A DNA stretch of 64,000 nucleotides from Pyropia yezoensis (taxonomy: Eukaryota; Rhodophyta; Bangiophyceae; Bangiales; Bangiaceae), in contig CM020620.1 of assembly GCA_009829735.1 (NCBI GenBank), forward strand, positions 15,907,186 to 15,971,185. Direction: 5' to 3'. The notes beneath the pieces are model-generated. The model was not told the DNA's origin, ran no database searches, and saw only the letters and a list, made by a program, of their open reading frames with translations. This document shows positions 3,547-60,700 of this stretch, piece after piece. Both the position numbers and the translations under genes were made by a program. Numbering within the stretch: the stretch's first letter is position 1; the number at the start of each line of letters is the position of its first letter.

Positions 3547-4016
3547 TGTGGCAAGAACCTCTCGCACACGCGACACCCAAGTTGGAGCAGTGCACAAGGG
3601 CTGCCTCCCGTGTCGGGGGAACCGGAAGAAGTGCAAGTCGCACACACTCTATCCCTGTTGTGGAGCAATCCCCCCACTGACAAACAAGAAGATGGTGTGT
3701 GGTCCAACAGTTTCTTGGTCGGGACGGGTAAGCAAGGCCAAGCCCCGCTGTCCCTCCCCTTATCCCCCCAGGGTCCCCTCAGAATCTCGCCACTCAGAAT
3801 CTCCCACCCCAGCACCTGCCCACCGGGCCACACGAAAATTCAAGACGATAAAATGCAGAAAACCCTCAAATCCACGTTGGATTTACTACTAAGCTAACTA
3901 TCCCAAACTTAGGGAATATGGGCCCACATGCAGGGGGAGGAACGGGTCAGGCTAGTGGCCTGCCGCCCCTTGCATGGCACGTGTTGCCCCCCTACCTGGG
4001 GGTCAATACTGCCACA
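3547..4016 (-). repeat. 3' LTR of element A (470 bp)
   Basis: It begins TGTGGCA and ends TGCCACA, the short inverted ends typical of an LTR. It is a diverged relative of the LTRs at 40079, 44628, 47995, 51362 and 54727. The element purine tract follows directly at 4017-4031 when read on minus. Confidence 0.9.
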
Positions 4017-4031
4017 CTCCCCTCTCCTCAG
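4017..4031 (-). promoter_or_regulatory. Polypurine tract of element A
   Basis: Read on minus it is CTGAGGAGAGGGGAG, abutting the LTR start TGTGGCAG. The same 15 bases abut the LTRs at 40548-40562 and 55196-55210. Its position sets the sense strand of the element as minus, the strand of pol. Confidence 0.8.
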
Positions 4032-4992
4032 TTCCGACCGACCCGGTCGGACCTGCGAGGGGGCGTGTAAACGCACGTCCGGCGTTGGGGGCGCGACTTG
4101 CTGTCTCCCGGGTACGTAACGTGGGCGTGGAGGCGGTCACGTTGACCGCCCCTCTCCTCAAGCTTGCCCACTCGGCAGCTTGCTCTCCTCGGTTCTCACA
4201 TCACCACCACCAACACATCCCCTTCACCTTCCCCTGGGCCGCCCCACGCTGGGGAGGCCACCCATCTACCCACGATCCGAGCCTCCCTCAACTCGAGGCG
4301 GGTCTCGTGCAGCTGCAACCGCGCGGCCTCTCCCTAACTTGGGGAGAGCCATGGTGACCCCGGGGGTGGAGACTGAATCCTTGGACGAACGTATGGAGGA
4401 TACGTCCTACGATGCAGCGCCCGCCAGGACTTTCGGCGGGGGCTCCGCGGTTGCTCCGAGGGATGGGATGCCCGCGTCACCCGGCTTCGAGTTGGCGGCG
4501 GGATCTCCCCCGGAGGTGGGCCGCGTCATCCCACGTGAGGCCTTGGGGCGGTGGTTTTACCCCGCTTGGCCTCTATATGAGGAGGGGTTGACTGTTCTCC
4601 GCTGTGGCCGACTTGGCACAGCGATGAGTCGGGTATGGGACCGCCTACGGGAGAAGTATCCCCGTAGGGTCGGGTTCCCTGCCGGCTTCAGGACGGACCA
4701 GTTTGCCTTCCTGGACGAGGACAAAGTCGAAGACGTGCAGCGGGCCAAGGCCATGGTGGACCGCGGGGGAACTACCCCGGGCCCCGGCGACGTGCCAACC
4801 TTTACTGGGGACGCGGTGACAACTCGTCCCCCGTACCTTCACGAGGTCGATCCGCACACTCATCACTTTGATGTGCGGATGGAGAAGGACTTCCGGCGAG
4901 GTCCCTACTTGGTGACCTCGGCTCAACTTGAGTTTCCGCAGCAGTCCGCTGCAAGCAAGGAGCAGTACTACCCCAAGAAGCCCGAATGGTGG

Positions 4993-5005
4993 CCTCAAGT
5001 TGAGG
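4993..5005. repeat. 13-bp palindrome centred on CAAGTTG
   Basis: CCTCAA-G-TTGAGG, arms of 6. The same palindrome is at 56176-56188. Confidence 0.85.
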
Positions 5006-5670
5006 TCCCCTACGGGTTTCCGGCGTTGCTACCCCGGTTGCTCGACCACTTCGGCTCCACCATGTTGGTGGCTAGCCCGGACCACGTGGTGTTCGCCATG
5101 TTGGCAACCCAGTGGCTCCTCGAGGTCATGTCGACCTGGGTGTCTTGTGTCCAGCGGCGGGGGATGTTCTGGCATCTCCCCCCTCGACTTATCCAAGGTT
5201 TGGAACAGCTCACCCCTCAGCTAGTTGCTGAGGGGTGCTCATCAGGACAACTCACTCTACTCGAGGAGATGCTCCGTCTCCATAAGTTCATTGAGTGGGA
5301 GAGCATTGAGCACAAGTTGCGCCGCTCCACCCGCGGGCCCAAGGACGATGGCGCACTTCGCCAGTTCGTCTGGGTCGGTCGTGAACTTCACGACGGCCGT
5401 GTGGTACTTCGAGAGGGGTTGGGCATAGGGACTACCCGTATGCCCCGGGGGTGGATCGCCACACTGCGCCGCCCCCGGACAAGGCCATCGTGATGGCCGT
5501 GCCTGCTCACGAGGACTACCTGCCTCAACCCACTGCGGGGGCCCCGAGTAGGGGTCGCAGTGACACTCGGGCACCGCCAACTCGGCGTGCCCCTCCGCTT
5601 CCTCCTGTCCCTGACCAGCCGCACGGGGATATCCCGATAAGCGTGGCCGTTGAGTCGTCCACCCCGGTGT

Positions 5671-5685
5671 CCCCCAACTTGGGGG
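5671..5685. repeat. 15-bp palindrome centred on CAACTTG
   Basis: CCCCCAA-C-TTGGGGG, arms of 7. Also at 56855-56869. Confidence 0.85.
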
Positions 5686-5817
5686 CCACCCTCCTGACGG
5701 TTTATCCCAAGTTGGTGTTGCCGGCCACGCCTTTGACCTCAGAGATGATGATCACCACGTTGGTGCGCACCATTTCTTGGTTGGCCGCGTCGACCGCAAC
5801 CCTTCAAGCTTCCGAGA

Positions 5818-5834
5818 CTCCTCAACTTGAGGAG
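5818..5834. repeat. 17-bp palindrome centred on CAACTTG
   Basis: CTCCTCAA-C-TTGAGGAG, arms of 8. Copy D has one change in the core (cctcaacctgagg). Confidence 0.85.
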
Positions 5835-6403
5835 CGCGTCCGTACGGCGTTGGCGACCGCAAGTTGCGAGTCGGTGGCGGGGTTTATGACGGCCGAGTTG
5901 GCTCGCATCGGGTCTATTGTGCCCCAGCCAGCCCCACTTGGGCGTGGCAAACGGCGGGCGAGCCGGGCATACTCGCCTCCTCGCCGTCGTCGCCGTCACT
6001 CGCGGCGATCTCCCTCCGTGTCGGAAGACGAGTTGTCTTATTCCGTCTCGGAGTCCTCTACCCCGTCGGAGTCGGAGTCGGTCCTGCGTCTGCGTCGCCA
6101 ACTTGCGCGCAAGACCAAGCAGAATGGTAGCCGCGGTCGTCGCCACTTGCGCGACGGCGAGGGGCGCGACGGTTCCGACTTGGAGCCGCCGGCCCCGCCG
6201 ACTGGTGGGGAACGTTATCGGCGTGGGTCTCGCCGCTCGCCTCACGTGAGGGCGAGGGTCGTGCGGTTGGTGAGTCTAGCATGCGTGCCTTGTTGGCAGC
6301 TGCCTTTGTTGTGAGAGTGTGAGGGTTAGGGCTGTAGTTAAAAGCCACTCTGCGTACCACTTCGACTTGAAGCACTCTCTTGGCACTGTGACTCGGCCTT
6401 CCC

Positions 6404-9400
6404 TCACGCTGAGGGGGGGCTGATAGGGTCCATATCATTCCGGGCACAGTATGCCCGGACGTTCTCAGCGGGAAGGTCCTCCACGTATTCCCACGTATCA
6501 TTCTTGGCCTTATAGCCGAACCAACGCACCCTCAACATGAGGCGGTTAGTGTCCTCATCCCATCCGTGGTCGATGAACTTATCTAACACGTACTCCTGCG
6601 GGCCCTGTTTGGCCGCAGGCAGCGAGGGCAGGCGCCACGCTTTCAGCGCACGCGCCCAAGCTGGGTCGCCTGCAGGCGGTGGTGCAACTTTGACCACGTC
6701 CTGTCCGTTTACTGTGCGGACCCCATCGTCACTTTCGATGGTGAACCGCCGCCCATTAGTACGAAGGACCTGGTACGGCCCCTTCGTCTGGAATACCAAC
6801 TTACCCCCAGTTGGGGTGTGTGAGTGCGCCAGTACCCAGTCACCCTGCTCGGGGACATGCTTAGCATTGCGCACCTTTTTGTCAAAAGTACGCTTGTAGC
6901 GCTGTTGCGCTTTGTCCATCTCAGCCCTGACTTTAGGGATGAGTTTTTCAAGCCTAGCAGCGAACTCCACCTTACTCTCAGTGGGAGTAGGCGTACTGCC
7001 ACCATCCTCCCTAGTTGGGAGCGGCCGCCGCACGGCAATAGACCGCACGCGACGGGGGGTCACAAAAGCGAGGGGTACTTCCCCGGTAGATGAGTGAATC
7101 TGCGAATTGTAGGCCGTCGTAAGAAAAGAAAGGTATTGGTCCCACGTTTTCACGTGCCCACATAGTGGCCCAGCTGCCGAACAATAGTTTTGTTGAAGCG
7201 CTCCACCTGCCCATTAGTTTGTGGGTGGTAGGGGGTGGCATAGTTTGCCTGAACCCCCAACATATCCAGCACTCCCTGAAACAGTACGGACGCAAATTGC
7301 GGTCCATTGTCCGATAGTGTACTGTCCGGGATGCCATACGCGGCAACCCAGTGATCTAGGAAGGCTGACACGACCGACATGGCCGTGATCTCTGCCAGAG
7401 GGATCGCTCGCGTAAGTTTCGTGAAGCGATCGCAGATGACCAGGAGGTACTGGTTGCCCTCCTCGGTCACTGGCAGGGGCCCAAGGATGTCCATTGCCAA
7501 CGCGGCAAAGGGCTCCTTGGCCGGGAACAGTAACATAGCCGTAGAAGGCCTCCGTTCCATCAGATGGTTCTGCGCACAACTTGTGCAGGCAGCCACCCAA
7601 CTGCAGATGTCCACCACCATGAACGGCCAGTAGTACCTGGTCCTCAGGGTCTGGTACAGTTTACTAGACCCCACGTGTCCACCTGTGGGAGCGTTATGCT
7701 CCCTCTCAAGAATACTGTCCTTGAGGGATGCGGGGACGACAAGTTGTTCGGTCCCCTGAATTACCCCCCTCCTCAAGAGGAGGCCATCGTCTCCGATGAA
7801 GAACCGTGTCTCCGCCACCGTATCCAGCGTATCCCTCTGCGACTTGCAGAAGGGGTCCTCGGCCTGGGCCTTCACCACCTCGTCCAGGGACAGGGGCAAG
7901 TACTTCTTGTTCCCTGGCGCCTCGGGGTTTAACGCCTGGCCCGAGCGCGTGACTACACCCACGATGGGGATGTCATCATCGACTGAGTTAGTGTCCAGCC
8001 CCTCGGTAGGTACCCGAGAAAGGCCGTCGGCAAGGGCATGTTGCCTGCCAGGTCGGTACTCAATATCAAAGTTGAAGGGTGCCAGTCGGACCCTCCACCT
8101 GTTGAGACGGGTGTTCGTGCAATCCGTCTTGAAGATGAACTGCAACGCGCGGTGGTCACAGCGGATAAGGAACTTCTCACCCTTTTGGTAGTGACGAAGT
8201 GACGTCACCGCCCACACCACTGCGAGTCCTTCCAACTTGGTGACTCCATAGTTCTTCTCAGCCGAGTTCAGCCCCTTGCTGAAGTATCCCACCGGCAAGT
8301 ACTCCTTGTCCGGCTGCTGCTGAAGCAACACACAACCAAGTTGTTCGTAGCTAGCGTCCACGTCCAGGATGGAGTGGCCTCCCAACCTGGGAATAGCCAA
8401 GATAGGGGGCTTCAGCAGAAGGTCCCGAAGAATCTCAAAGGATTCCTGCTCCACCCGACTTGGGGGAGGCAGGTGCTTCGGTAGCGTGGAACTAACTAGC
8501 TCATTCAGCGGCTTCGCCACCTTGGCGAAACCCTTGGTGAAACGTCGGTACACGTTACACATCCCGAGGAAGCTCCTCATCTGGGTCTGGGTCCGGGGGT
8601 ACTGAGCCTTACGGATGGCCCTCAAGTTCTTCTCGTTGACACTGAGGCGCCCCGGACGGACAACATGTCCCAAGTATTCCACCTCCTGAGTGAAGAGGTG
8701 GCACTTACTCGCCTTCAGTGACACACCGGCGTCAGCAAGTAGCTTGAACACCTGGCCAAGATGGCCAATGTGCTCCTCCGGACTTCGGGAGAACACAATG
8801 ATATCGTCTAGGTACACAAGACAGATCTGCCACAGTACTCTGGCCAGAATCATGTCCATAGCGCGCTGGAAAGTTGCCGGCGCGTTGCATAGTCCAAACG
8901 GTAGTCGTTTGCACTGGTAGGTACCACAGTGACAGGTAAAGGTAGTTCTATGCCTATGTTCTGGGGCAATGGGAATTTGCCAGTACCCCGCGTTACAGTC
9001 TAGGGTAGAGAACACGTTTGCCTCCCCCAGAGAGTCCAGACAGTCGTCCATCCTAAGTAGGGGATAACTGTCCTTCACCGTGCTCTCGTTCAGCTTACGG
9101 TAGTCCATGCAGAACCGTGGAGTCCCATCAACTTTGGGGACAATGACCACTGGACTCGTCCACTCGGCGTTGCTGGCCTCAATCGCGTCGAGGGCTTCCA
9201 TGCGAGCGACTTGCTCCTTGACGAGGGCCCTTGAACGGGATCCTCCCCTCTATGGTTGTTGACGTATAGGGGGTGCACCGGGCTTCAACTCGGTCCGTTG
9301 CTCGGCAGCTATCACGAGTCCCAACTGACCATCTTACAACTTCTGATATTGGTCCAAGAGGCGCTCAACTCGAACCCTCAACCTGGGTGGAACACTCTCC

Positions 9401-9405
9401 ATGTT
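6404..9405 (-). pseudogene. pol of element A: reverse transcriptase, RNase H, integrase, chromodomain
   Basis: Read on minus from about 9405: a spacer (MESVPPRLRVRVERLLDQ), then reverse transcriptase with SPVVIVPKVDG, FCMDYRKLNE and the catalytic VYLDDIIVFS, then RNase H beginning ILDVDASYEQLGCVL, then integrase with the H-H-C-C zinc-binding region (HNAPTGGH to ACTSC) and the acidic triad in MDILGPLP, SDNGPQFAS and NGQVERFNK. The C-terminus has a chromodomain (LRVRWFGYKAKNDTWEYVEDLP), which places it among the chromodomain Ty3/gypsy elements. It is interrupted by a TAG at 9250-9252, where D has Tyr, and by a 4-base loss near 7153-7160 that splits integrase from its C-terminal part (6404-7153). 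The main open frame is 7150-9201. Confidence 0.93.
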
Positions 9406-9581
9406 CACATCGTCGGCGACCGGAACCACATGCAACTCAATCACACAAACTGCATGGCGTTGTATTTCACAATTTTCCACTGCAACGTACTGCAACATCA
9501 CGCGAAGACCGTCCACTGATGAAAAAAGAGCACCACTGCAATACATGTCATGACTTGTGTACCGCCGCATCTTCTTGTATT
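9406..9581. other. Junction sequence between pol of element A and the right palindrome arm
   Basis: These bases match neither element D nor B at this position and are AT-richer than the surroundings. On minus the frame is open from the arm, through this stretch, into the pol spacer (VENCEIQRHAV then ELHVVPVADDVNMES). It could therefore be a diverged 5' pol segment rather than filler DNA. It cannot be assigned from this window. Confidence 0.5.
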
Positions 9582-13103: not shown

Positions 13104-16100
13104 TCACCTCAAGTCTCTCCTCAGAAAGTTGGGTGACCACGTCCGGCCGTGGATCAAGGACGACCAAGGGATGCGGGCCACCCGCCGCGGCGGCGTCGTC
13201 GCTCCCTGCGGCGGCGGCAGCATCGGCGGCGGCAGCGGCGACCGCTCTGCCCGCACCAGTGACGCTGCCATACCCGCCTCCCGCGTCGGCAGCATCCGCT
13301 GCGACGACGCCTCCCGCGGCGGCAGCATCCGCTGCGATGACACGTCCCGTGGCTGTGGAGGCGGCGGCGGCAGCGGCGGCAGCGGCGGCGGCGGCAGCCG
13401 CGGCAGCGGTGACGCCGTCCCCTCTGTCGCCTGTAGCGATGACCCCCGCGGCGACGCCGCGGCCGCCTCTGTCGCCAGAGGCGGTGGGGGGGACCGCGGC
13501 GGTGGTGGCCGCACGGGGGGGAGCGGCGACGACCGCGGTAGCCGCGGCGGCCGCGCCGCCCGCACCGTTGCCCCAGCCACAGCCGGCTCTGCCCCGTGAC
13601 GCGGCGGCGGCGGCGGCGGCGGCGGCGACAGCGACGGCGCTACGCTCGGGTCGTGGGGCGGGTGTGGCAGCGGCGACGCCAAAGCCGCCACCTGGGTCAC
13701 CTGTGGTGGGCGGGATGACCGTGGCCGTGGTGATGGCGGTGGCGGGGGGCGTGGGGACGGGGGCCCCCGCGGCGGGCGCGTCGCCCGCGACGGTGGCGCG
13801 GCAGCGCTCGTGTGCCGCGGCGGCGGCGGAAGGGGTGACGGGGCCACCGTTGTCGCCTGCGGCGGCAGAGGCGATGACGGCCGCGGTGGTTGTGGTGGCA
13901 GGGGGGGCAGCGGCGGCAGCGTGCGGTCCATCCGTCGCGGGCGGTCCTCCCGTGGCGGCCGGACCTCCCGCGGCGGCCGGTCCTCCCGCGGCGGCCGATC
14001 CTCCCGCGGCGGCCGGTCCTCCGGTGGTGGCTGGTCCTCCCGTGACGGATGGGCCTCCTCCGGTGCTGACGCAGCCGTCTCGGTCGTCGATGGCGGAGGC
14101 ATCGGCTGCGATGGCGTGACTCCCGTCCCTTGACCCGGTGGCTGTGGCGGTGGCGGCGGCGATGACCCCTCTTCCTCCTCGATTGGCGATGACTGTGGCC
14201 GCGACGCCGCTGCCCCCATCGCCTGTGGCGGTGGGGGTAACCGTGCCGGTGGCGGTGGTGGGGTGGCGGTCGGTGGCCGCTCCGCCGGGGGCGTCGCCCG
14301 CAGCGGTGATGCCGTAGCACCCGGTGCCCTCGGTAGAGGGGAAGACGGCGGCGGCGGGCGCTCTGCCCACAGCGGTGACACTGCAGGTACCGTCGCCGTC
14401 GGTGGAGGGGAGGTCGGCGGCGGCCACCGCTCCGTCCGCAGCGATGACGCTGCAGCGCCCGCCGCCTGTCGCAGAGGCGTCGGCGGCGGCGGCGGCACCC
14501 CCTCCCTTTCAGGCAAAGCCGATGGCGGCGGCGACGCTGCCACCTCTGTCGATGGTGCCTGTGGGGACGGCAATGGCGGCGTCGGTCGTGGGGAAGAAGA
14601 CGACGGCAGTGGGATCTCCGCCCGCGGCGATGACGCTTCCACTCCCATCGCCTGTGGCACATGCGTTGGCTGCAATGACACTGCACCCGACCCCTGAACT
14701 CTGGAGGTCACCCTCGCCGCCGTAACCTCATGGTCCTGTCGCGGTGGCGGTGGCGGTGGCGGTGGCGGTGGCGGTGGCGGTGGCGGCGGTGGTGGCGGCG
14801 GCGGTGATGGGGTCAGATTCATTGGCACCAGGTGTTGCAACCTTGGCGATGTCGCTGCCGCCCCCGTTGCCTGTGGCGGAGGCGTCAATGACTTGACCGC
14901 CACCGCTTCCCCTTGGTACGGAGGCGGTCGCGGCGATGCCGCCATCTCCATCGTTTGTGCCCGTGGGGGTGAAAATGACGGCAGCGCTCGTGCAGACCGA
15001 GTCAATGGCAGCGGGCTCTCCTCCCGCAGCGCAGACGCTGGCGCCCCCGTCACCTGTTGCCGATGTGTCGTCGGCGATACCGTCAAACGTGTCTCGGTGG
15101 GTAGTGGCGGCACGGGAGACTCTGGCAGCTGGCGGTCTACCCGCAGCGGTATTGCGGCCGATTCGGTCGCCTGCGGCGGAGGCGTCTGCGGCGACGGCAC
15201 CAACCTCGCTGCTCGGTTCAACGGCGTGCGTGGCGACGTCGCTACCCCCCTCACCGGTAGCGGTGGCGGTGACTGTGGCGGTGGTGGTGGCGGTGGGGTA
15301 AATGGTACCGGCGTACGCCCTGCGCGAAGCATCGACGCTGCTGCATCTGTTGCCAAACGCACATGCGGTGACGCCAGCGTTGAGGATGCCTCCCCGATTG
15401 CCAGCGGTGGCAGTACCGGTGGAAGGCGCGACGATGGAGGGCGGGGTGACCGCCCCGCCAGCGGAGAAGACATCATCGGGCCGGGCCCCACCAATGACAT
15501 CGGTAGCTTGCCCTCTGCCACTGCCGCCGCCGCCGTCGGGGGCCAATAAGTCCCGCCGGCCGGCCAAAGCCTCCACATCTTGGGGCTCCCCACTGCTGCT
15601 GTCGTGTCCTCTGAGCTGTCGGCGTCTCGCCCTTGAGTACTGACCCTGTCGCCGCAGCCGCTGCTACTGCTGTTGCCGTTGCCACTACCTCCATCGCCAC
15701 CACTACCGCTGCCGCCTCCGCCACTGCCTTCAAAGCCACTGCCTGGCGGCCGCGTTGCCCACCGAGGCGGTGGCGGCGGCGGCGGCGGCGGCGTCGGGGG
15801 GGGGTGCGTCGGTAGGCTCATCGTCGATGGCTCCCCGGGGGTCTGTGCCCGCGGCGACGGCGGTGGCGGGGCTGGCCGCGGCAGGAGAGGCTCCGCTGCG
15901 GGCGACGGCGACGGCGCTTCTGCCCCTCCCCGCCTCGACGTGAATGGCGTGACGGGGCTGAACAGGAAGAGCGCCGATGGGGGGGCCGGTGACCCGTCGC
16001 ACCCCAGCGGCGGCGGCGCAGTCGGCTGCGCCGGTAGCGGCGGCGGCGTGGCGGGCACGCGGTTGTACAATGGAGCAGCCCTCGCCGATTGGGCGGCGGC

Positions 16101-40078: not shown

Positions 40079-40547
40079 TGTGGCAAAAAGCACTTACACA
40101 CACGACACCCAAGTTGGGGCGGTGTACAAGGGCTGCCTCCCGTGTCGGGGGAACCGGAAGAAGTGCAAGTCGCACACACTCTGTCCCTGTTGTGGGGCAA
40201 CCCCCCCACTGACAAACAAGAGGATGGTGTGTGGTCCAACAGTTTCTTGGTCGGGACGGGGACGCAGGGCCAAGCCCCGCTGTCCCTCCCCTTATCCCCC
40301 CAGGGTCCCCTCAGAATCCCGCCACTCAGAATCTCCCACCCCAGCACCTGCCCACCGGGCCACACGAAAATTCAAGACGATAAATGCAGAAAACCCTCAA
40401 ATCCAAGTTGGATTTACTACTAAGCTAACTATCCCAAACTTAGGGAATATGGACCCAAATGCAGGGGGAGGAACGGATCAGGCTAGTGGCCTGCCGCCCC
40501 TTGCATGGCACGTGTTGCCCCCCTACCTGGGGGTCAATACTGCCACA
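40079..40547 (-). repeat. LTR1 (469 bp)
   Basis: TGTGGCA ... TGCCACA. It is slightly different from LTR2-LTR5 (for example gggtcccctcagaatccc against gggtccactcagaatctc). It carries both the CCCAAGTTGGG and the AAATCCAA-G-TTGGATTT palindromes. Confidence 0.95.
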
Positions 40548-40562
40548 CTCCCCTCTCCTCAG
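40548..40562 (-). promoter_or_regulatory. Polypurine tract of element B
   Basis: CTGAGGAGAGGGGAG on minus, abutting LTR1. Identical to the tracts of A and D. Confidence 0.8.
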
Positions 40563-40885
40563 TTCCGACCGACCCGGTCGGCCCTGTGAGGGGGTGCGTA
40601 AACGCACGTCTCGGCGTTGGGGGCGCGACTTGCTGTCCCCCCTTGAGTACGTAACGCGGATGTGGAGGCGGTCACGTTGACCGCCCCTCTCCTCGAGCTT
40701 GCCCACCCGGCAGCTTGCTCTCTCCGGTTCACACTTCACCTTCACCACCACCTCATCTTCACTTTCCACGGGGCCGCCCCACGCTGGGGAGGCCACCCGT
40801 CTACCCACGATCCGAGTCCCCCTCAACTAGAGGCGGGTCTCGTGCCGCCGTAGCCAGGGCGTCTCTCCCCAATTTGGGGAGAGCC

Positions 40886-42829
40886 ATGGCGACCCCGGGA
40901 GTGGAGACGGACTCTCTCGACGAACGTATGGAGGACACCTCCTACGGTGCAGCGCCCGCCGGGACTTCCGGCGGGGGCTCCGCGATCGCTCCGGGGGACG
41001 GGACTCCCGCGTCACCCGGCTTTGGGTTGACGGCGGGGTCTCCCCCGGAGGCGGGACAAGTTGTCCCGCGTGAGGCCTTGGGGCGGTGGTTTTACCCCGC
41101 TTGGCCTCTATATGAGGAGGGGTTGACTGTTCTTCGCTGTGGCCGACTTGGCGCAGCGATGGGTCGGGTATGGGACCGCCTATGGGAGAAGTATCCCCGT
41201 AGGGTCGGGTTCCCTGCCGGCTTCAGGACGGACCAGTTTGCCTTCCTGGACGACGAGGAGGTCGAAGACATACAGCGTGCCAAGGCCATGGTGGACCGCG
41301 GGGGAACTATCCCGGGTCCCGGCGACTTGCCGACCTTTGCTTGGGACGCGGTGGCAACTCGCCCCCCGTACCTTCACGAGGCCGATCCGCACACTCATCA
41401 CTTTGATGTGCGGATGGAGAAGGACTTCCGGCGAGGTCCCTACTTGGTGACCTCGGCTCAACTTGAGTTCCCTCAGCAGTCTGCTGCCAGTAAGGAGCAG
41501 TACTATCCGAAGAAGCCCGAGTGGTGGCCTCAAGTTGAGGTCCCCTACGGGTTCCCGGCGTTGCTACCACGGTTGCTTGACCACTTCGGCGCCGCCATGT
41601 TGACGGCTGGCCCTGATCACCTGGTGTGGGCCATGTTGGCCACCCAGTGGCTCCTCGAGGTCATGTCGACCTGGGTGTCTTGTGTTTAGCGGCGGGGGAT
41701 GCTCTGGCATCTCCCCCTCCGGCTTATCCAAGGTTTGGAACAGCTCACCCCTCAGCTAGTTGCTGAGGGGTGCTCATCAGGACAACTCACTCTACTTGAG
41801 GAGATGCTCCGGCTCCATAAGTTTATCGAGTGGGAGAGCATTGAGCACAAGTTGCGCCGCCCCACTCGTGGGCCCAAGGACGATGGCGCACTTCGCCAGT
41901 TCGTGTGGGTCGCTCGTGAACTTTACGACGGCCGTGTGGTCCTACGAGAGGGGTTGTGCATCGGGGACTACCCGTATGCCCCGGGGGTGGATCGCCACAC
42001 TGCGCCACCCCCGGACAAGGCCATAGTTATGGCCGTGCCCTCATATGATGACCATATGACTCAACCCACTGCGGGGGCCCCAAGTCGGGGTCGTAGTTAC
42101 TCCCGGGTCCCGCCACCTCGGCGTGCCCCTCCGCTTCCTCCTGTCCCCTACCAGCCGCACGGGGACATCCCGATTAGCGTGGCCGTTGAGTCGTCCACCC
42201 CGGTGTCCCCCAACTTGGGGGCCACCCTCCTGACGGTATACCCCAGGTTCGTGTTACCGCCCACGCCTCTAACCTCAGAGATGATGATCACCACGTTGGT
42301 GCGCACCATTTCCTGGTTGGCCGCGTCGACCGCAACCCTACAGAGTTCCGAGACTCCTCAACTTGAGGAGCGCGTTCGTACTGCAGTGGCGACCGCGAGT
42401 TGCGAGTCGTTGGCGGAGTTTATGACGGCCGAGTTGGCTCGCATCGGGGCCATTATGCCCCGGCCAGCCCCACTTGGGCGTGGTAAACGTCACGCGAGCC
42501 GGGCATACTCGCCTCCTCGCCGTCGTCGCCGACACTCGCGGCGCTCTCTCTCCGTGTCGGAAGACGAGTTGTCTTACTCCGTCTCGGAGTCCTCGACTCC
42601 GTCAGATTCGGAGTCGGTCCGGCGTGTGCGTCGCCAACTTGCGCGCAAGACTAAACAGAAGGGCAGCCGCGGTCGTCGCCACTTGCGCGACCGTGAGGGG
42701 CGCGGCGGTTCCGACTTGGAGCCGCCGGCCCCGCCGACTGGTGGGGAGCGTTATCGCCGTGGGTCTCGCCGCTCGCCTCCACGTGAGGGCGAGGGCCGTG
42801 GGGTTGGAGAGTCTAGCATGCATGCCTAG
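40886..42829 (+). pseudogene. Antisense ORF of element B, one TAG
   Basis: Same length and frame as the intact copy in D (648 codons including stop), broken only by TAG at 41687-41689 (tgtgttTAGcgg), where A and D have CAG. Otherwise it is open from ATG 40886 (gagccATGG) to TAG 42827-42829. The Arg/Ser-rich C-terminal region is intact. Confidence 0.8.
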
Positions 42830-42940
42830 TTGGCAGCTGCCTTTGTTGTGAGAGTGTGAGGGTTAGGGCTGTAGTTAAAAGCCACTCTGCGTACCACTTC
42901 GACTTGAAGCACTCTCTTGGCACTGTTGTTCGGCCTTCCC

Positions 42941-43936
42941 TCACGTTGAGGGAGGGCTGTTAGGGTCTATCTCATTCCGGGCACAGTAAGCCCGGACCTT
43001 CTCAGCGGGAAGGTCCTCCACATACTCCCACGTATCATCCTTGGCTTTGTAGCCAAACCAGCGGACCCTCAACATGAGGCGGTCAGTGTCCTCATCCCAG
43101 CCGTGGTCGATGAACTTATCGAACACGTACTCCTGCGGGCCCTGTTTGGCCGCAGGCAGTGAGGGGAGGCGCCACGCTTCCAAAGCACGCGCCCAAGCTG
43201 GGTCGCCTGCAGGCGGTGGTGCAACTTTGACCACGTCCTGTCCGTTCACTGTGCGGACCCCATCGTCACTTTCGATGGCGAAGCGCCGCCCATCAGTACG
43301 AAGGACCTGGTACGGCCCCTTCGTCTGGAATACCAACTTACCCCCAGTTGGGGTGTGTGAGTGTACCAGCACCCAGTCACCCTGCTCGGGGACATGCTTA
43401 GCATTGCGCACCTTTTTGTCAAAGGTACGCTTGTAGCACTTTTGTGCTTTGTCCATCTCAGCCCTGACTTTAGGGATGAGGTTTTCAAGCCTAGCGGCGA
43501 ACTCCGCCTTACTCTCAGTAGAAGTAGGCGTACTGCCACCATCCTCTCTAGCTGGGAGCGGCCGCCGCACGGCAATAGACCGCACGCGTCGGAGGGTCAC
43601 AAAAGCGCGGGGTACTTCCCCGGTAGATGAGTGAACCTGCGAATTGTAGGCAGTGGTAAGAATAGAAATGTATTGGTCCCACGTTTTCACATGCTCACTC
43701 ACATAGTGGCGCAGCTGCCGAACAATAGTTTTGTTGAAGCGCTCCTGAACGAGGGCCCTTGAACGGGGCCCTCCCCTATTCGGTTGTTGGCGTATTGGGG
43801 GTACACCGGGTTTCAACTCGATCCGGTGTTGGGTGGCTCTCATGAGTCCCAACTGACCATCCCACAACTTGTGATATTGGTCCAAGAGGCGTTCAACTTG
43901 AACCCTCAACCTGGGGGGGACACCCTCCATGTTCAC
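42941..43936 (-). pseudogene. Internally deleted pol of element B: spacer fused in frame to integrase C-terminus and chromodomain
   Basis: The 331-codon frame starts MNMEGVPPRLRVQVERLLDQ and jumps at about 43742 from the start of reverse transcriptase (GGPRSRALVQ) directly to the end of integrase (ERFNKTIVRQLRHYV). It then runs through the integrase C-terminus to the chromodomain (LRVRWFGYKAKDDTWEYVEDLP). Reverse transcriptase, RNase H and the integrase core are missing. The join sits on the shared bases GCTCC and keeps the frame. Such a product could still bind integrase partners or chromatin, but B depends on other copies for movement. Confidence 0.85.
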
Positions 43937-44104
43937 ATGGGGACGAGGAGAGGCGGCCGACTTGGCTTGGTGCTTCTCCTTTCCGGACTTCGGGTCGCTA
44001 CTCGCGCCCGCGTTGAGGGTGACCGCTACTACCGGTCCCTCATGTTGGTCAATATAGCCGAACTTGGCTCCCGATCAAAGATACTTTCTTTGAGGGTGGC
44101 GGGG

Positions 44105-44119
44105 GTAGCAACTTGCTAC
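44105..44119. repeat. 15-bp palindrome centred on CAACTTG
   Basis: GTAGCAA-C-TTGCTAC, arms of 7, in the element leader. Confidence 0.85.
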
Positions 44120-44608
44120 GACCCCTGTCACAGGCTCGAGCCCATCACCGACGAGTGAAGGTCCGCCGTCCTCCACCCGCCTAGTTGGCGACGGCTCTAT
44201 GCCGAAGTTGAGTCCGAACTCGAGTGGATCTCGCGGGGACAGTCCTCTCACCTCGGGACGTTCCCTTTGAGTGTACCACCCGGTGGCCGAGGTGCGAACC
44301 ACCGGTCCGAGGAAGACCCTTAGAGTGAACACTCGACTGGGTCGGGGAGGCATACCGCCCGCACCGATACCCACGGCCCTGCTGGCTGGAGTGCCTCTAG
44401 CACCTCCGCGACCCCAGGTACACCCTGTGTCTGACCAGTATTCAAAGGCGCCGGAGTAAAGTCGTCACCGGAGAGTTTCCCGAACGTCGGGAGGTCCCAT
44501 CCAGCCGTGTTGGCTAACGATCCACACGACACAGTCCAAGACCACCGTTCCTCTGAGACAGAGGGCCCCCTACACCCGGGTGCACCCGGAGGTAGAGTTC
44601 ACCTCTGT

Positions 44609-44625
44609 CCCCTGCTGCTCCACCA
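44609..44625 (-). promoter_or_regulatory. Candidate tRNA primer-binding site of element B
   Basis: On minus, TGGTGGAGCAGCAGGGG begins two bases after the LTR2 end (GCCACA-TT-TGG...). Starting with TGG, it would pair with the CCA end of a tRNA whose 3' strand reads CCCCTGCTGCTCCACCA. The tRNA was not identified. Confidence 0.5.
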
Positions 44626-44627
44626 AA

Positions 44628-54726: not shown

Positions 54727-54740
54727 TGTGGCAAAAACCA

Positions 54741-54778
54741 CTAGCACACACGGCACCCAAGTTGGGGCGGTGTGCTAG
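54741..54778. repeat. Nested stem-loop in the LTR
   Basis: CTAGCACAC (54741-54749) pairs with GTGTGCTAG (54770-54778). The loop holds a second palindrome, CCCAA-G-TTGGG (54756-54766). In LTR2 both outer arms differ in a partly compensating way (CTTGCACAC / GTGTACAAG). Confidence 0.75.
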
Positions 54779-55046
54779 GGCTGCCTCCCGTGTCGGGGGA
54801 ACCGGAAGAAGTGCAAGTCGCACACACTCTGTCCCTGTTGTGGGGCAAACCCCCCACGGACAAACAAGAGGATGGTGTGTGGTCCAACAGTTTCTTGGTC
54901 GGGACGGGGACGCAGGGCCAAGCCCCGCTGTCCCTCCCCTTATCCCCCCAGGGTCCACTCAGAATCTCGCCACTCAGAATCTCCCACCCCAGCACCTGCC
55001 CACCGGGCCACACGAAAATTCAAGACGATAAATGCAGAAAACCCTC

Positions 55047-55063
55047 AAATCCAAGTTGGATTT
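55047..55063. repeat. 17-bp palindrome in LTR5
   Basis: AAATCCAA-G-TTGGATTT, arms of 8. Also present in LTR1-LTR4; the older LTR of A has CAC for CAA. Confidence 0.85.
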
Positions 55064-55195
55064 ACTACTAAGCTAACTATCCCAAACTTAGGGAATATGG
55101 ACCCAAATGCAGGGGGAGGAACGGATCAGGCTAGTGGCCTGCCGCCCCTTGCATGGCACGTGTTGCCCCCCTACCTGGGGGTCAATACTGCCACA

Positions 55196-55210
55196 CTCCC
55201 CTCTCCTCAG
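55196..55210 (-). promoter_or_regulatory. Polypurine tract of element D
   Basis: CTGAGGAGAGGGGAG on minus, abutting LTR5. Confidence 0.8.
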
Positions 55211-55510
55211 TTCCGACCGACCCGGTCGGCCCTGTGAGGGGGTGCGTAAACGCACGTCTCGGCGTTGGGGGCGCGACTTGCTGTCCCCCATCGAGTACGT
55301 AACACGGATGTGGAGGCGGTCACGTTGACCGCCCCTCTCCTCAAGCTTGCCCACTCGGCAGCTTGCTCTCCTCAGTTCACACTTCACCATCACCACCACC
55401 TCCCCTTCACCTTCCACTGGGCCGCCCCACGCTGGGGAGGCCACCCGTCTACCCACGATCCGAGTCCCCCTCAACTCGAGGCGGGTCTCGTGCTGCGATA
55501 GCCAGAGCGT

Positions 55511-55531
55511 CTCTCCCCAACTTGGGGAGAG
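55511..55531. repeat. 21-bp palindrome just upstream of the antisense ORF start
   Basis: Arm CTCTCCCCAA on each side of a central C, two bases before the ATG at 55534. In B the arms are kept and the centre is T. In A one arm base differs. Confidence 0.85.
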
Positions 55532-55533
55532 CC

Positions 55534-57477
55534 ATGGCGACTCCGGGAGTGGAGACGGACTCTCTTGACGAGCGCATGGAGGACACCTCCTACGGTGCAG
55601 CGCCCGCCGGGACTTCCGGCGGGGGCTCTGCGATCGCTCCGGGGGACGGGACTCCCGCGTCACCCGGCTTTGGGTTGACGGCGGGGTCTCCCCCGGAGGC
55701 GGGACAAGTTGTCCCGCGTGAGGCCTTGGGGCGGTGGTTTTACCCCGCTTGGCCTCTCTATGAGGAGGGGCTGACTGTTCTTCGCTGTGGCCGACTTGGC
55801 GCAGCGATGGGCCGGGTATGGGACCGCCTACGGGAGAAGTATCCCCGTAGGGTCGGGTTCCCTGCCGGCTTCAGGACGGACCAGTTTGCCTTCCTGGACG
55901 ATGAGGAGGTTGAGGACGTTCAGCGTGCCAAGGCCATGGTGGACCGCGGGGGAACTATCCCGGGTCCCGGCGACTTGCCGACCTTCACGTGGGACGCTGT
56001 GGCAACTCGCCCACCGTACCTCCACGAGGCCGATCCGCACACTCATCACTTTGATGTGCGGATGGAGAAAGACTTCCGGCGAGGTCCCTACTTGGTGACC
56101 TCGGCTCAACTTGAGTTTCCTCAACAGTCTGCTGCCAGTAAGGAGCAGTACTATCCGAAGAAGCCCGAGTGGTGGCCTCAAGTTGAGGTCCCCTACGTGT
56201 TCCCGGCGTTGTTGCCACGGTTGCTTGACCACTTCGGCGCCGTCATGTTGACGGCTGGTCCTGATCACCTGGTGTGGGCCATGTTGGCCACCCAGTGGCT
56301 CCTCGAGGTCATGTCGACCTGGGTGTCCTGTGTTCAGCGGCGGTGGATGCTCTGGCATCTCCCCCTCCGGCTCCTCCAAGGTTTGGAACAGCTCACCCCT
56401 CAGCTAGTTGCTGAGGGGTGCTCATCAGGACAACTCACTCTACTTGAGGAGATGCTCCGGCTCCATAAGTTTATCGAGTGGGAGAGCATTGAGCACAAGT
56501 TGCGCCGCCCCACTCGTGGGCCCAAGGATGATGGCGCACTTCGCCAGTTCGTGTGGGTCGCTCGTGAACTTCACAACGGCCGTGTGGTCCTACGAGAGGG
56601 GTTGGGCATCGGGGACTACCCGTATGCCCCGGGGGTGGATCGCCACACTGCGCCACCCCCGGACAAGGCCATAGTTATGGCCGTGCCCTCATATGATGAC
56701 CATATGACTCAACCCACTGCGGGGGCCCCAAGTCGGGGTCGCAGTTACACCCGGGTACCGCTACCTCGGCGGGCCCCTCCGCTTCCTCCTGTTCCTTTCC
56801 AACCTCACGGGAACAACCCGATCAGCGTGGCCGTGGAGTCTTCCTCCCCGGTGTCCCCCAACTTGGGGGCCACCCTCCTGACGGTATACCCCAAGTTGGT
56901 GTTGCCGCCCACGCCTCTAACCTCAGAGATGATGATCACCACGTTGGTGCGCACCATTTCCTGGTTGGCCGCGTCGACCGCAACCCTACAGAGTTCCGAG
57001 ACTCCTCAACCTGAGGAGCGCATTCGTACTGCAGTGGCGACCGCGAGTTGCGAGTCGTTGGCGGAGTTTATGACAGCCGAGTTGGCTCGCATTGGGGCTA
57101 TTATGCCCCAGCCAGCCCCACTTGGGCGTGGCAAACGTCGCGCGAGCCGGGCATACTCGCCTCCTCGCCGTCGTCGCCGACACTCGCGGCGCTCTCCTTC
57201 CGTATCCGAAGACGAGTTGTCTTACTCCGTTTCGGAGTCCTCTACCCCGTCGGAGACGGAGTCTGTCCAGCGTCTGCGTCGCAAACTTGCGCGCAAGACC
57301 AGGCAGAAGAGTGGCCACGGTCGGTGCCACTTGCGCGACCGTGAGGGGCGCGACGGTTCCGACTTGGAGCCGCCGCCCCCTCCCACAAGTGGAGACCGTT
57401 ATCGGCGTGGGTCTCGCCGCTCGCCTCCACGTGAGGGCGAGGGCCGTGGAGTGGGAGAGTCTAGCATGCGTGCCTAG
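55534..57477 (+). CDS. Intact 647-aa ORF antisense and convergent to pol in gypsy element D, family unknown
   Basis: ATG 55534 (gagccATGG) to TAG 57475-57477. N-terminal third: acidic, Gly/Ser/Pro-rich start, then a compact part with REALGRWFYPAWPLYEEGL and LREKYPRRVGFPAGFRTDQF. Middle: PYLHEADPHTHHFDVRMEKD, hydrophobic LLEVMSTWVSCVQRRW, then helical LEEMLRLHKFIEWESIEHKL. C-terminal third: Pro-rich linker, helical SEMMITTLVRTISWLAASTA, then Arg/Ser-rich SPPRRRRRHSRRSPSVSEDE and more basic sequence. I recognise no domain. It lies between pol and the 3' LTR on the opposite strand, as do the antisense ORFs described in some plant gypsy elements. Because the elements leave little room for a sense-strand Gag, it might supply a Gag-like nucleic-acid-binding role; this is speculation. 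Copies A, B and E are broken by one to three lesions each. Confidence 0.75.
   Translation: MATPGVETDSLDERMEDTSYGAAPAGTSGGGSAIAPGDGTPASPGFGLTAGSPPEAGQVVPREALGRWFYPAWPLYEEGLTVLRCGRLGAAMGRVWDRLREKYPRRVGFPAGFRTDQFAFLDDEEVEDVQRAKAMVDRGGTIPGPGDLPTFTWDAVATRPPYLHEADPHTHHFDVRMEKDFRRGPYLVTSAQLEFPQQSAASKEQYYPKKPEWWPQVEVPYVFPALLPRLLDHFGAVMLTAGPDHLVWAMLATQWLLEVMSTWVSCVQRRWMLWHLPLRLLQGLEQLTPQLVAEGCSSGQLTLLEEMLRLHKFIEWESIEHKLRRPTRGPKDDGALRQFVWVARELHNGRVVLREGLGIGDYPYAPGVDRHTAPPPDKAIVMAVPSYDDHMTQPTAGAPSRGRSYTRVPLPRRAPPLPPVPFQPHGNNPISVAVESSSPVSPNLGATLLTVYPKLVLPPTPLTSEMMITTLVRTISWLAASTATLQSSETPQPEERIRTAVATASCESLAEFMTAELARIGAIMPQPAPLGRGKRRASRAYSPPRRRRRHSRRSPSVSEDELSYSVSESSTPSETESVQRLRRKLARKTRQKSGHGRCHLRDREGRDGSDLEPPPPPTSGDRYRRGSRRSPPREGEGRGVGESSMRA
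56176..56188. repeat. 13-bp palindrome centred on CAAGTTG
   Basis: CCTCAA-G-TTGAGG, inside the antisense ORF (codes Pro-Gln-Val-Glu-Val). Confidence 0.85.
56855..56869. repeat. 15-bp palindrome centred on CAACTTG
   Basis: CCCCCAA-C-TTGGGGG, inside the antisense ORF in another codon phase (Pro-Asn-Leu-Gly). Confidence 0.85.
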
Positions 57478-57588
57478 TTGGTAGCTGCCTTTGTTGTGAG
57501 AGTATGAGGGTTAGGGCTGTAGTTAAAAGCCACTCTGCGTACCACTTCGACTTGAAGCACTCTCTTGGCACTGTTGTTCGGCCTTCCC
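57478..57588. other. Spacer between convergent antisense ORF and pol in element D
   Basis: 111 bases between the two stop codons. It holds two near-perfect members of the palindrome family: CTTCGACTTGAAG (57545-57557) and, overlapping the pol end, TCCCTCACGTTGAGGGA (57586-57602). They could act as shared 3' hairpins for both transcripts. The layout is the same in A, B and E. Confidence 0.6.
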
Positions 57589-58762
57589 TCACGTTGAGGG
57601 AGGGCTGTTAGGGTCTATCTCATTCCGGGCACAGTAAGCCCGGACCTTCTCAGCGGGAAGGTCCTCCACATACTCCCACGTATCATCCTTGGCTTTGTAG
57701 CCAAACCATCGCACCCTCAACATGAGGCGGTCAGTGTCCTCATCCCATCCGTGGTCGATGAACTTATCGAACACGTACTCCTGCGGGCCCTGTTTGGCCG
57801 CAGGCAGTGAGGGGAGGCGCCACGCTTCCAAAGCACGCGCCCAAGCTGGGTCGCCTGCAGGCGGTGGTGCAACTTTGACCACGTCCTGTCCGTTCACTGT
57901 GCGGACCCCATCGTCACTTTCGATGGCGAAGCGCCGCCCATCAGTACGAAGGACCTGGTACGGCCCCTTCGTCTGGAATACCAACTTACCCCCAGTTGGG
58001 GTGTGTGAGTGTACCAGCACCCAGTCACCCTGCTCGGGGACATGCTTAGCATTGCGCACCTTTTTGTCAAAGGTACGCTTGTAGCACTTTTGTGCTTTGT
58101 CCATCTCAGCCCTGACTTTAGGGATGAGGTTTTCAAGCCTAGCGGCGAACTCCGCCTTACTCTCAGTAGAAGTAGGCGTACTGCCACCATCCTCTCTAGC
58201 TGGGAGCGACCGCCGCACGGCAATAGACCGCACGCGACGGGGGGTCACAAAAGCGAGGGGTACTTCCCCTGTAGATGAGTGAACCTGCGAATTGTAGGCA
58301 GTGGTAAGAATAGAAATGTATTGGTCCCACGTTTTCACATGCTCACTCACATAGTGGCGCAGCTGCCTAACAATAGTTTTTTTTGAAGCGCTCCACCTGC
58401 CCATTAGTTTGTGGGTGGTAGGGGGTGGCATAGTTTGCCTTAACCCCCAACATATCCAGCACTCCCTGAAACAGTACAGACGCAAATTGCGGTCCATTGT
58501 CCGATAGTGTACTATCTGGGATGCCATACGCGGCAACCCAGTGATCTAGGAAGGCTGACACGACCGACATGGCCGTGATCTCTGCCAGTGGGATCGCTCG
58601 CGTAAGTTTCGTGAAGCGGTCACAGATGACCAGGAGGTACTGGTTGCCCTCCTCGGTCACGGGCAGTGGCCCAAGGATGTCCATCGCCAACGCGGCGAAG
58701 GGCTCCTTGGCCGGGAACAATAGCATAGCCGTAGTAGGCCGCCGTTCCATCAGACGATTCTG

Positions 58763-58777
58763 TGCACAACTTGTGCA
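58763..58777. repeat. 15-bp palindrome in the integrase region
   Basis: TGCACAA-C-TTGTGCA. In A the outermost pair is broken, leaving 13 bp at 7574-7586. Confidence 0.85.
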
Positions 58778-59523
58778 GGCAGCCACCCAACTGTAGATGT
58801 CCACCACCATGGACGGCCAGTAGTACCTGGTCCTCAGGGTCTGGTACAGTTTACTAGACCCCAGGTGTCCACCCGTGGGAGCGTTGTGCTCCCTCTCAAG
58901 GATACTGTCCTTGAGGGATGCGGGGACGACAAGTTGTTCGGTCCCCTGGAATACCCCCCTCCTCATGAGGAGGCCATCGTCTCCCAGAAAGAAACGCGTC
59001 TCTACCACTGTATCCAGAATATCCCTCTGCGACTTGCAGAAGGGATCCTCGGCCTGGGCCTTCACCACCTCGTCCAGGGACAGGGGCAAGTACTTCTTGT
59101 TCCCTGGCGCCTCGGGGTTCAACGCCTGACCCGAGCGCGTGACTACCCCCACGATGGGGATGTCCTCATCGACTGGGTTAGTGTCCAGCCCCTCGGTAGG
59201 TACCCGAGAGAGGCCGTCGGCAAGGGCATGTTGCCTGCCAGGTCGGTATTCAATGTCAAAGTTGAAGGGTGCCAGTCGCACCCTCCACCGGTTGAGACGA
59301 GTGTTCGTACAGTCCGTCTTAAAGATGAACTGCAACGCGCGGTGGTCACAGCGGATGAGGAACTTCTCACCCTCCAGGTAGTGACGAAGTGACGTCACCG
59401 CCCACACCACTGCGAGTCCTTCCAACTCGGTGACTCCGTAGTTCTTCTCGGCCGAGTTCAGCCCTTACTAAAGTATCCCACCGGCAAGTACTCCTTGTCC
59501 GGCTGCTGCTGAAGCAACACACA

Positions 59524-59534
59524 ACCAAGTTGGT
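59524..59534. repeat. 11-bp palindrome in the RNase H region
   Basis: ACCAA-G-TTGGT. A has ACCAAGTTGTT. Confidence 0.75.
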
Positions 59535-60392
59535 CGTAGCTAGCGTCCACATCCAGGATGTAGTGGCCTCCCAACCTGGGAATAGCCAAGATGGGGGGCT
59601 TCAGCAGAAGGTCCCGAAGAGTCTCAAAGGATTCCTGCTCCACCCGACTTGGGGGAGGCAGGTTCTTCGCTAGCGTTGAGCTCACTAGCTCATTCAACGG
59701 CTTCGCCACCTTGGCGAAGCCCTTGGTGAAACGTCAGTACACGTTACACATCCCGAGGAAGCTCCTCATCTGGGTCTGGGTCCGGGGGTACTGAGCCCTA
59801 CGAATGGCCCTCAAGTTCTTCTCGTTAACACTGAGACGCCCCGGATGGACAACATGTCCCAAGTACTCCACCTCTTGAGTAAAGAGGTGGCACTTGCTCG
59901 CCTTCAGTGACACACCGGCGTCTGCAAGTAGCTTGAACACCTGGCCAAGATGGCCAATGTGTTCCTCCGGACTTCGGGAGAACACAATGATATCGTCTAG
60001 GTACACAAGACAGATCTGCCACCGTAATCCGGCCAGAATCATGTCCATAGCGCGCTGGAAAGTTGCCGGCACGTTACACAGACCAAACGGTAGACGCTTG
60101 CACTGGTAGGTACCACAGTGACAGGTAAAGGTAGTTTTATGCCTGTCCTCCGGGGCAATGAGAATTTGCCAGTACCCCGCGTTACAGTCCAGGGTGGAGA
60201 ACACGTTTGCCTCCCCCAGAGAGTCCAGACAGTCATCCATCCTAGGTAGGGGATAACTGTCCTTCACCGTGCTCTCGTTGAGCTTACGGTAGTCGATACA
60301 AAACCGGGGGGTCCCATCAACTTTGGGGACGATAACCACCGGACTCGCCCACTCGGCGTTGCTGGCCTCGATCACATCGAGGGCCTCCATGC

Positions 60393-60405
60393 GAGCAACT
60401 TGCTC
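60393..60405. repeat. 13-bp palindrome at the start of reverse transcriptase
   Basis: GAGCAA-C-TTGCTC. A has GAGCGACTTGCTC, one change. Confidence 0.85.
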
Positions 60406-60551
60406 CTTAACGAGGGCCCTTGAACGAGGTCCTCCCCTATACGGTTGTTGGCGTATAGGGGGTGCACCGGGTCTCAACTCGATCCGGTGTTGGGTGGCTC
60501 TCATGAGTCCCAATCGACCATCCCACAACTTGTGATATTGGTCCAAGAGGC

Positions 60552-60564
60552 GTTCAACTTGAAC
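60552..60564. repeat. 13-bp palindrome in the pol spacer
   Basis: GTTCAA-C-TTGAAC. An 11-bp one, CACAA-C-TTGTG, lies 17 bases upstream at 60524-60534. Confidence 0.85.
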
Positions 60565-60700
60565 CCTCAACCTGGGGGGGACACCCTCCATGTTCACATG
60601 GGGTCGAGGAGAGGCGGCCGATTTGGCTTGATGCTTCTCCTTTCCGGACTTCGGGTCGCTACTTGCGCCCGCGTTGAGGGTGACCGCTACTACCGGTCCC

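Follow-up and report, generated by a model that had tools for sequence, protein, structure and literature searches.

Arrays of short putative stem-loops with a lineage-specific core in gypsy retrotransposons of the red alga Pyropia yezoensis

The element and its palindromes

The 64,000-nucleotide (nt) stretch of contig CM020620.1 of the nori alga Pyropia yezoensis analysed here (the window; all coordinates are positions within it) carries several copies of a gypsy-type retrotransposon, among them element D, analysed as 54728-60600. A reading made from the letters alone (below, the sequence-only reading) had noted in these elements a family of palindromes centred on CAASTTG, S being C or G, with arms that differ at every site. 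We found that these palindromes belong to a larger array, in which about 5-8 Watson-Crick pairs of any sequence surround a 5-nt spacer of the form N-A-S-T-N. According to PMC7423979, the genome has 65% G+C and its main repeats are long terminal repeat (LTR) elements; our genome-wide counts cover 107.48 Mb, with three large contigs of 43.6, 34.3 and 29.4 Mb.

Judged by its sequence organization, the lineage of element D is a Ty3/gypsy LTR retrotransposon, with LTRs, a primer site, a gag zinc knuckle, the order reverse transcriptase-RNase H-integrase and a 5-bp target-site duplication. Its sense strand is the minus strand of the window, as given by the reverse transcriptase and integrase frames and by a polypurine-like tract, recognized by eye, that adjoins the LTR. 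The features of element D are as follows:

54727..55195, minus strand: LTR, bounded by TGTGGCA...TGCCACA, holding the palindromes at 54756-54766 and 55047-55063
54756..54766: palindrome CCCAAGTTGGG, in the LTR
55047..55063: palindrome AAATCCAAGTTGGATTT, in the LTR
55303..57474, plus strand: 724-amino-acid open frame antisense to pol, with many palindromes within; no Pfam family
55315..55333: stem of 7, spacer ACGTT, relaxed core
55511..55531: palindrome CTCTCCCCAACTTGGGGAGAG
55603..55623: stem of 8, spacer GACTT, relaxed core
55699..55717: palindrome GCGGGACAAGTTGTCCCGC, arm of 9, absent from the earlier list
56105..56115: palindrome CTCAACTTGAG
56176..56188: palindrome CCTCAAGTTGAGG
56394..56420: stem of 11, spacer TAGTT; the central 23 bases are identical in 33 of 34 rows, element A included
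56855..56869: palindrome CCCCCAACTTGGGGG
57209..57223: stem of 5, spacer GAGTT
57545..57557: stem of 4, spacer GACTT, given in the sequence-only reading as CTTCGACTTGAAG
57592..58545, minus strand: C-terminal part of the integrase, with a weak chromodomain match below the Pfam cut-off
58370..59464, minus strand: RNase H, integrase zinc-binding domain and integrase core
58763..58777: palindrome TGCACAACTTGTGCA, within the integrase zinc-binding region
58895..58915: stem of 8, spacer TACTG
59266..59284: stem of 7, spacer CAGTC
59524..59534: palindrome ACCAAGTTGGT
59737..60599, minus strand: reverse transcriptase (the part listed)
59868..59890: stem of 9, spacer GAGTA
60393..60405: palindrome GAGCAACTTGCTC
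60524..60534: palindrome CACAACTTGTG
60552..60564: palindrome GTTCAACTTGAAC

The antisense frame has an arginine/serine-rich end and is retained at 85-100% protein identity in elements A and B and in other copies.

All 14 palindromes of the sequence-only reading lie at their given positions and are perfect apart from the central base; its list is incomplete in that it omits the one with an arm of 9. Element D has 15 CAASTTG cores, 12 of them with arms of at least 5, and the window has 60, of which 43 have arms of at least 5 bp. The claim that the palindromes are confined to gypsy elements holds in the window, where it was assessed: all 60 cores lie inside gypsy copies or their LTRs and none in the host region or the copia interiors. 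Genome-wide, however, the bare core is found elsewhere too, and seven of the first eight core loci have CAASTTG without arms of 5. CAASTTG occurs 35,340 times in the genome, as against 9,726 for the same pattern read backwards, which served as control; the next base pair outward is complementary at 25,578 of the former (10,347 + 3,809 + 5,455 + 5,967; 72%) and at 2,392 of the latter (1,174 + 617 + 395 + 206; 25%).

A perfect stem around a five-nucleotide spacer

Dinucleotide shuffles (20 for element D) provided the chance control for perfect stems. In element D, 31 stems of at least 5 pairs surround a 5-nt spacer, against a mean of 6.0 and a maximum of 10 in the shuffles, whereas the same count shows no excess in host DNA (60 vs 52.9) or in a copia interior (4 vs 3.1). 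Spacers of 3, 5, 7 and 9 nt yield 32, 31, 28 and 19 perfect stems of this length in D, against 6.0-7.7 in shuffled sequence, and even spacers a far smaller excess. In the gag part of a related copy, L040, the 5-nt spacer is the strongest (17 vs 3.4), with several other spacers, even ones included, also above the shuffles.

The core emerges without being asked for. In 35 stems of at least 5 pairs picked with no core requirement, the five spacer positions, read on the sense strand, are A in 23, A in 25, C or G in 32, T in 25 and T in 16. Conversely, around ACT and AGT triplets the bases at offsets 3-7 pair at rates of 0.45, 0.40, 0.48, 0.39 and 0.33, against about 0.26, clearly above the other triplets among the top rows listed. 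All four Watson-Crick pair types are elevated 1.37-1.70-fold in D, and no mismatch type is. In D and the L040 gag part together, arms accompany 15 of 39 AASTT cores, 26 of 83 AASTV, 10 of 42 BASTT and 15 of 153 BASTV, as against 104 of 4,635 unrelated C/G-centred positions. A/T-centred spacers (NAWTN) have stems of 4 in 0 of 51 cases. Thus, CAASTTG is indeed the perfect form of the core, but only one form of the wider N-A-S-T-N spacer, to which the one-mismatch relatives reported earlier (CGACTTG and similar cores) also belong. The closing pair in D is mostly C...G (C at position -3 in 27 of 45), and the centre is C in 27 and G in 18 of the 45. At -2 the base is A in 41 of 66 cases, and at +2 it is T in 25; the 15 cases with both are close to the product of the two frequencies. 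Such independence suits a 5-nt loop better than a full DNA dyad.

We also considered decay of CpG, turning CGASTCG into CAASTTG; it accounts for some one-mismatch relatives and not for matching arms. Perfect CGASTCG-core palindromes with arms of at least 5 are absent from the gypsy copies, the sole one in the window, CACGACTCGTG, lying in host DNA.

The array extends over LTR, leader, gag, pol and the antisense frame, and the 17 sites tested in pol coding sequence have their centres in every codon phase (5, 7 and 5), as had been claimed. Both observations support the earlier proposal of a feature of these gypsy elements at the level of nucleic acid. The sites are not evenly spaced (mean spacing 128, standard deviation 94).

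Distribution among elements

For comparison between elements, a site was counted as an AST centre with at least 4 of 5 pairs. Element D has 45 such sites against 4.7 expected, about 8 per kilobase over the element; the related copy L040 has 29 against 3.7, and L008 has 15 against 2.0. Two further copies lie in the window:

3548..9410, minus strand: element A, 92% identical to D; 39 sites against 4.4 expected
40079..44627, minus strand: element B, lacking part of the pol found in D and including the palindrome at 44105-44119; 38 sites against 3.9 expected

At 84-87% identity, seven copies have 17-26 sites each (2.2-3.2 expected), largely at shared places. There is no such excess in host DNA (6 vs 7.0), in a copia interior (1 vs 1.2) or in the stretch L003-L005, whose first part has another gypsy reverse transcriptase (1 vs 1.9). 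The confinement of the arrays to certain lineages holds among the lineages sampled.

The family is abundant, as judged from 1,868 exact occurrences of its 15-base LTR end genome-wide, both strands together, and 1,551 first-look candidates for the region of the antisense frame, of which 40 were scored and 30 retrieved. All but three of the 124 best matches scored for the reverse transcriptase are free of internal stops. The 5' part of L040 has a gag frame with a Pfam zinc knuckle (PF00098) above the cut-off, and a weak aspartic protease match (E 0.089).

Positions 1-15517 of the window form a large inverted repeat: 9582-15517 is the reverse counterpart of 1-5942, with a match of 99.6%. Part of element A, together with its flank, thus stands twice, head to head, which may be real or an effect of assembly. 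Between 44628 and 55196 a unit of about 3.37 kb stands three times in tandem, the copies being 99.7-99.8% alike. Its copia-type interiors (Pol_BBD; gag_pre-integrase below the cut-off) are enclosed by LTRs that belong to the gypsy family, and the one interior tested has no AST array. At 43741-43745 element B shares with L011 and L025 a single junction across the missing part of pol, which suggests that copies with the deletion are spreading as a subfamily.

A second lineage with a different spacer

A second gypsy lineage (loci L045, L001, L046 and L043; L001 reverse transcriptase, 65% protein identity over 205 amino acids) has no excess of AST sites in L001 and its neighbours (4 vs 5.6). Its perfect stems of at least 5 pairs surround a 4-nt spacer instead, numbering 68 in 9 kb against 12.6 in shuffled sequence, and 39 against 7.3 in the related copy L043. 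In the first 6.3 kb, G...C closes 51 of 66 such stems; a central YR step is present in 27 of the 51, against a background of 23%. Spacers of 3 and of 5-12 are also in excess over the 9 kb, partly from its repetitive end; downstream of the L001 element, in L046, lies a long repetitive stretch with frames of proline/threonine/glycine-rich repeats. The 4-nt-spacer excess is absent from L002 (1 vs 4.1), L003-L005 (4 vs 9.1) and L006-L007 (0 vs 5.6). The two lineages have the same putative primer-binding sequence after the LTR. As to homologous placement of their hairpins, only 3 D sites fall in the main aligned part, and none is closer than 16 nt. Mean folding-energy z-scores are -1.58 for D and -1.38 for the L001 lineage, as against -0.28 for copia and -0.32 for host DNA. 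Taken together, these sequences indicate that some of the gypsy lineages here have dense hairpins, each with its own spacer and closing pair. The array of the second lineage, with its different spacer, had been overlooked in the sequence-only reading.

Conservation of the arms

A comparison of three branches (D, A and F) is the only clean test of conservation, and clean only for the D branch. At 22 sites found in A and F without reference to D, 0 of 178 arm positions changed on the D branch, against 21 of 541 flank positions (two-sided p 0.0036; the flanks overlap, so that one position may be counted twice) and 72 of 3,123 positions overall (one-sided p 0.014). The spacer is likewise conserved on this branch (1 of 100 changed). 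The arms there are thus not simply drifting apart, though on the A branch they change like the flanks. Private mutations are about as frequent in arms (115 per 235 arm pairs, 0.489) as elsewhere (4,772 per 9,081, 0.525), so any protection would act before insertion, in the replicating lineage; variants common to at least three copies are scarcer in arms (12 of 235 pairs) than elsewhere (1,167 of 9,081).

In comparisons of families, 9 of 224 paired arm positions differ, as do 5 of 36 unpaired ones and 68 of 519 flank positions at 11-20. Arm differences between L001 and L043 amount to 29 of 497 or 13 of 432, depending on the copy that defines the sites, with flanks at 85 of 768 or 83 of 673. When intact sites are chosen, the changes of one branch drop out, which by itself would bring arm divergence down to about half that of the flanks; the family, L001/L043 and pair-based figures are therefore not proof of selection. 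On balance, these comparisons make selection on the arms likely, if not proven.

Stem-loops as proposed dispersed signals

The sequence comparisons establish the excess, the spacer length, the core, the confinement to certain of the sampled lineages and the conservation on one clean branch. We propose, with a probability of roughly 0.4, that the sites are stem-loop signals under selection, distributed along the element and recognized in single-stranded nucleic acid, probably through the Gag of the element itself. The perfect stems, arbitrary in sequence, would serve solely to present a fixed small loop N-A-S-T-N, whose best form is AASTT, closed most often by C...G. Recognition of a loop is the cheapest account of variable stems and a fixed small loop repeated in dozens of places and differing between lineages. 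The most probable reader would be the Gag/nucleocapsid protein, which in a related copy has a CCHC zinc knuckle; its binding could make the stem-loops act as dispersed signals for packaging or condensation, and selection on the replicating lineage would keep them. The second lineage would use the same principle with a 4-nt loop N-Y-R-N closed by G...C, each lineage marking its own nucleic acid. A more specific and doubtful version is that the hairpins form a lineage-specific code, legible on both strands, that marks nucleic acid as self for the cognate Gag and excludes competing elements.

A number of results weigh against this proposal. RNA stems usually tolerate G.U pairs, and the missing preference for them is the main weakness of a reading confined to sense RNA. 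The 43 single-mismatch stems of the D lineage have 7 sense G.U, 8 antisense G.U and 28 other mismatches, whereas the corresponding 171 at other centres divide into 27, 27 and 117. A stricter selection of 33, drawn from both lineages, has 5, 9 and 19, against 5.3, 5.7 and 22.1 expected. Nor is sense G.U above background in the longer stems of the second lineage. Antisense G.U, on the other hand, makes up 12 of 33 mismatches in L043, against 17% expected (p 0.008), and 10 of 39 in the homologous L001 family (p 0.13), an antisense-only excess that is at odds with a signal in sense RNA. The idea of hairpins in genomic RNA, raised in the sequence-only reading, is borne out in part only, since G.U pairs on the sense strand are not favoured. 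An apparent sense-RNA signature among single changes (73 of 166, against a 29% background) had to be discarded, as it disappeared when each event was counted once (37 sense and 31 antisense of 127).

The loop preferences, too, are nearly strand-symmetric in both lineages. AASTV outnumbers its reverse-complement class by 26 to 10 (p 0.011), and A as first spacer base exceeds T as last (41 and 25 of 66; p 0.009), but among available cores the rates are alike (p 0.41). Conservation is uneven: the A branch, a single copy with private mutations, has no protection of the arms (6 of 202 vs 25 of 596 in flanks, p 0.53), the F branch figures (5 of 193 vs 70 of 613) are partly biased by site choice, and a stricter 5-of-5 rule leaves too few sites (D 0 of 30 at 3 sites, flank 1 of 65; A 3 of 60; F 2 of 49). 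Double compensating changes occur at 3 of 1,149 site pairs, as against 474 of 55,370 background pairs (0.86%), and at 2 of 250 pairs between L001 and L043. The sequence-only reading had named independent change of the arms, with no excess of paired changes, as what would speak against its palindromes being a feature in their own right, and to the letter such an excess is lacking. Finally, the copia-type interiors flanked by LTRs of the same family carry no array. The absence of G.U preference and of compensation would fit strict DNA stems, stems on both strands or an ancient copying process.

The first of these options places the feature in DNA, either as hairpins or small cruciforms, formed in cDNA or in the integrated copy, or as dyad sites for a dimeric DNA-binding protein, acting on either strand. 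The strict Watson-Crick stems and the nearly strand-symmetric core, with C- and G-centred forms both in use (27 and 18 of 45 in D), are what one would expect of it. Yet pairing is less elevated at offset 2, which is odd for a plain DNA dyad, and the second lineage also has an excess at 7-9 nt spacers. Moreover, for the extrusion of a cruciform the arms, at 5-8 bp, are short, and we know of no dimeric DNA-binding protein that reads arbitrary matching arms. We regard this explanation as unlikely, though a serious contender.

Somewhat less credible is a mutational origin, in which the reverse transcriptase of the element, changing template at AST (or YR), would make the second arm as a copy of the first, leaving palindromes of no function. 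It draws on the perfect Watson-Crick arms of varied length and sequence, on mismatch types that follow the background and on the limitation to certain element lineages, which would tie the process to their own enzymes. Ongoing copying predicts many double changes, however, and these are rarer than background (3 of 1,149 vs 0.86%; 2 of 250 between L001 and L043), which weakens the process that makes palindromes suggested in the sequence-only reading. The sites are also common to copies of 84-87% identity, and the D branch is unchanged (0 of 178). An ancient burst followed by neutral decay may still account for the palindromes, as the choice of intact sites would produce much of the arm conservation seen outside the three-branch comparison, and the A branch is unprotected.

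A still weaker case can be made for structure on both transcripts, whereby hairpins would keep sense and antisense RNA from forming duplexes and thereby escape RNA silencing, or would kiss through self-complementary cores. The 724-amino-acid antisense frame of the D lineage would be in keeping with this, as would the folding z-score of -1.58 on both strands of D (-0.28/-0.22 in copia) and the lack of A/T-centred NAWTN spacers with stems of 4 (0 of 51). Strand symmetry without G.U preference is expected if both RNAs fold, and A-S-T cores of the C and G types can pair with each other. Against it, we know of no mechanism of this kind, and consider the scenario improbable.

The notion that the palindromes are preferred integration targets, with a spacer equal to the target-site duplication, has very little left in its favour. 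It arises from the 5 bp of both spacer and duplication in the D lineage and from the YR centre of the second, which is similar to the target preferences known for integrases. Of the nine D-lineage insertions sought, eight were resolved, all with 5-bp duplications and none with A-S-T (0 of 8), and the second lineage duplicates 5 bp (4 of 4) though its spacer is 4; for the sampled insertions the notion is refuted. Chance, base composition or coding constraint can practically be set aside, for although high G+C raises palindromes generally, with many in host DNA, the shuffles, the genome-wide reversed-pattern control, the use of all codon phases and the presence in LTRs refute it, and other elements of similar composition show no excess.

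Comparison with known systems

To our knowledge, how the Gag of a retrotransposon selects its own RNA is poorly known outside a few models. With dozens of putative signals per element and a readable core that differs between lineages of one genome, short synthetic hairpins would give a direct test of how Gag chooses its RNA. Should the arrays be the trace of a copying habit instead, the reverse transcriptase would have left a visible signature of itself. Under either reading the effect is very strong, as the 25,578 of 35,340 CAASTTG cores with a complementary flanking pair in a genome of 107 Mb attest.

Several systems offer partial parallels. Retroviruses use kissing-loop hairpins in dimerization and packaging, an example being the GACG tetraloops of murine leukaemia virus; these, too, are short stems presenting a small loop able to pair with another, but they are few and lie in the leader, whereas the present array spans the whole element. 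The Smaug recognition elements, single sites in the control of host mRNAs, are hairpins with a CNGGN pentaloop and a variable stem. They share with the predicted D-lineage hairpins a pentaloop on a stem of free sequence, which in the case of Smaug is read by a protein, and differ in the loop itself, in not forming an array and in belonging to a host mRNA rather than a retrotransposon. In RNA viruses, genome-scale ordered RNA structure consists of general pairing with no fixed loop; the folding energy below shuffled sequence across coding regions is alike here, while the spacer length and core fixed in each lineage and the lack of sense-strand G.U preference are not.

Among LTR retrotransposons, a palindromic target preference is described in PMC6911290. 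It likewise ties palindromes to LTR elements, but here the element itself carries them, and the sampled insertions lie elsewhere. Searches of open-licence papers, judged by titles and opening lines of abstracts, gave no description of such arrays in retrotransposons.

The closest parallel is perhaps the dispersed RNA packaging signals of single-stranded RNA viruses (MS2, picornaviruses, the hepatitis B virus pregenome), the recognition of which by coat proteins has been studied, as PMC6281560 relates. Like these, the D-lineage array places many potential stem-loops over the whole element, coding sequence included, with a common motif and otherwise variable sequence; the sequences able to form them, by predicted folding, are present over the element, with a common loop and variable stems. 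Unlike the viral signals, it belongs to a nori retrotransposon and combines strict Watson-Crick stems with a nearly strand-symmetric core.

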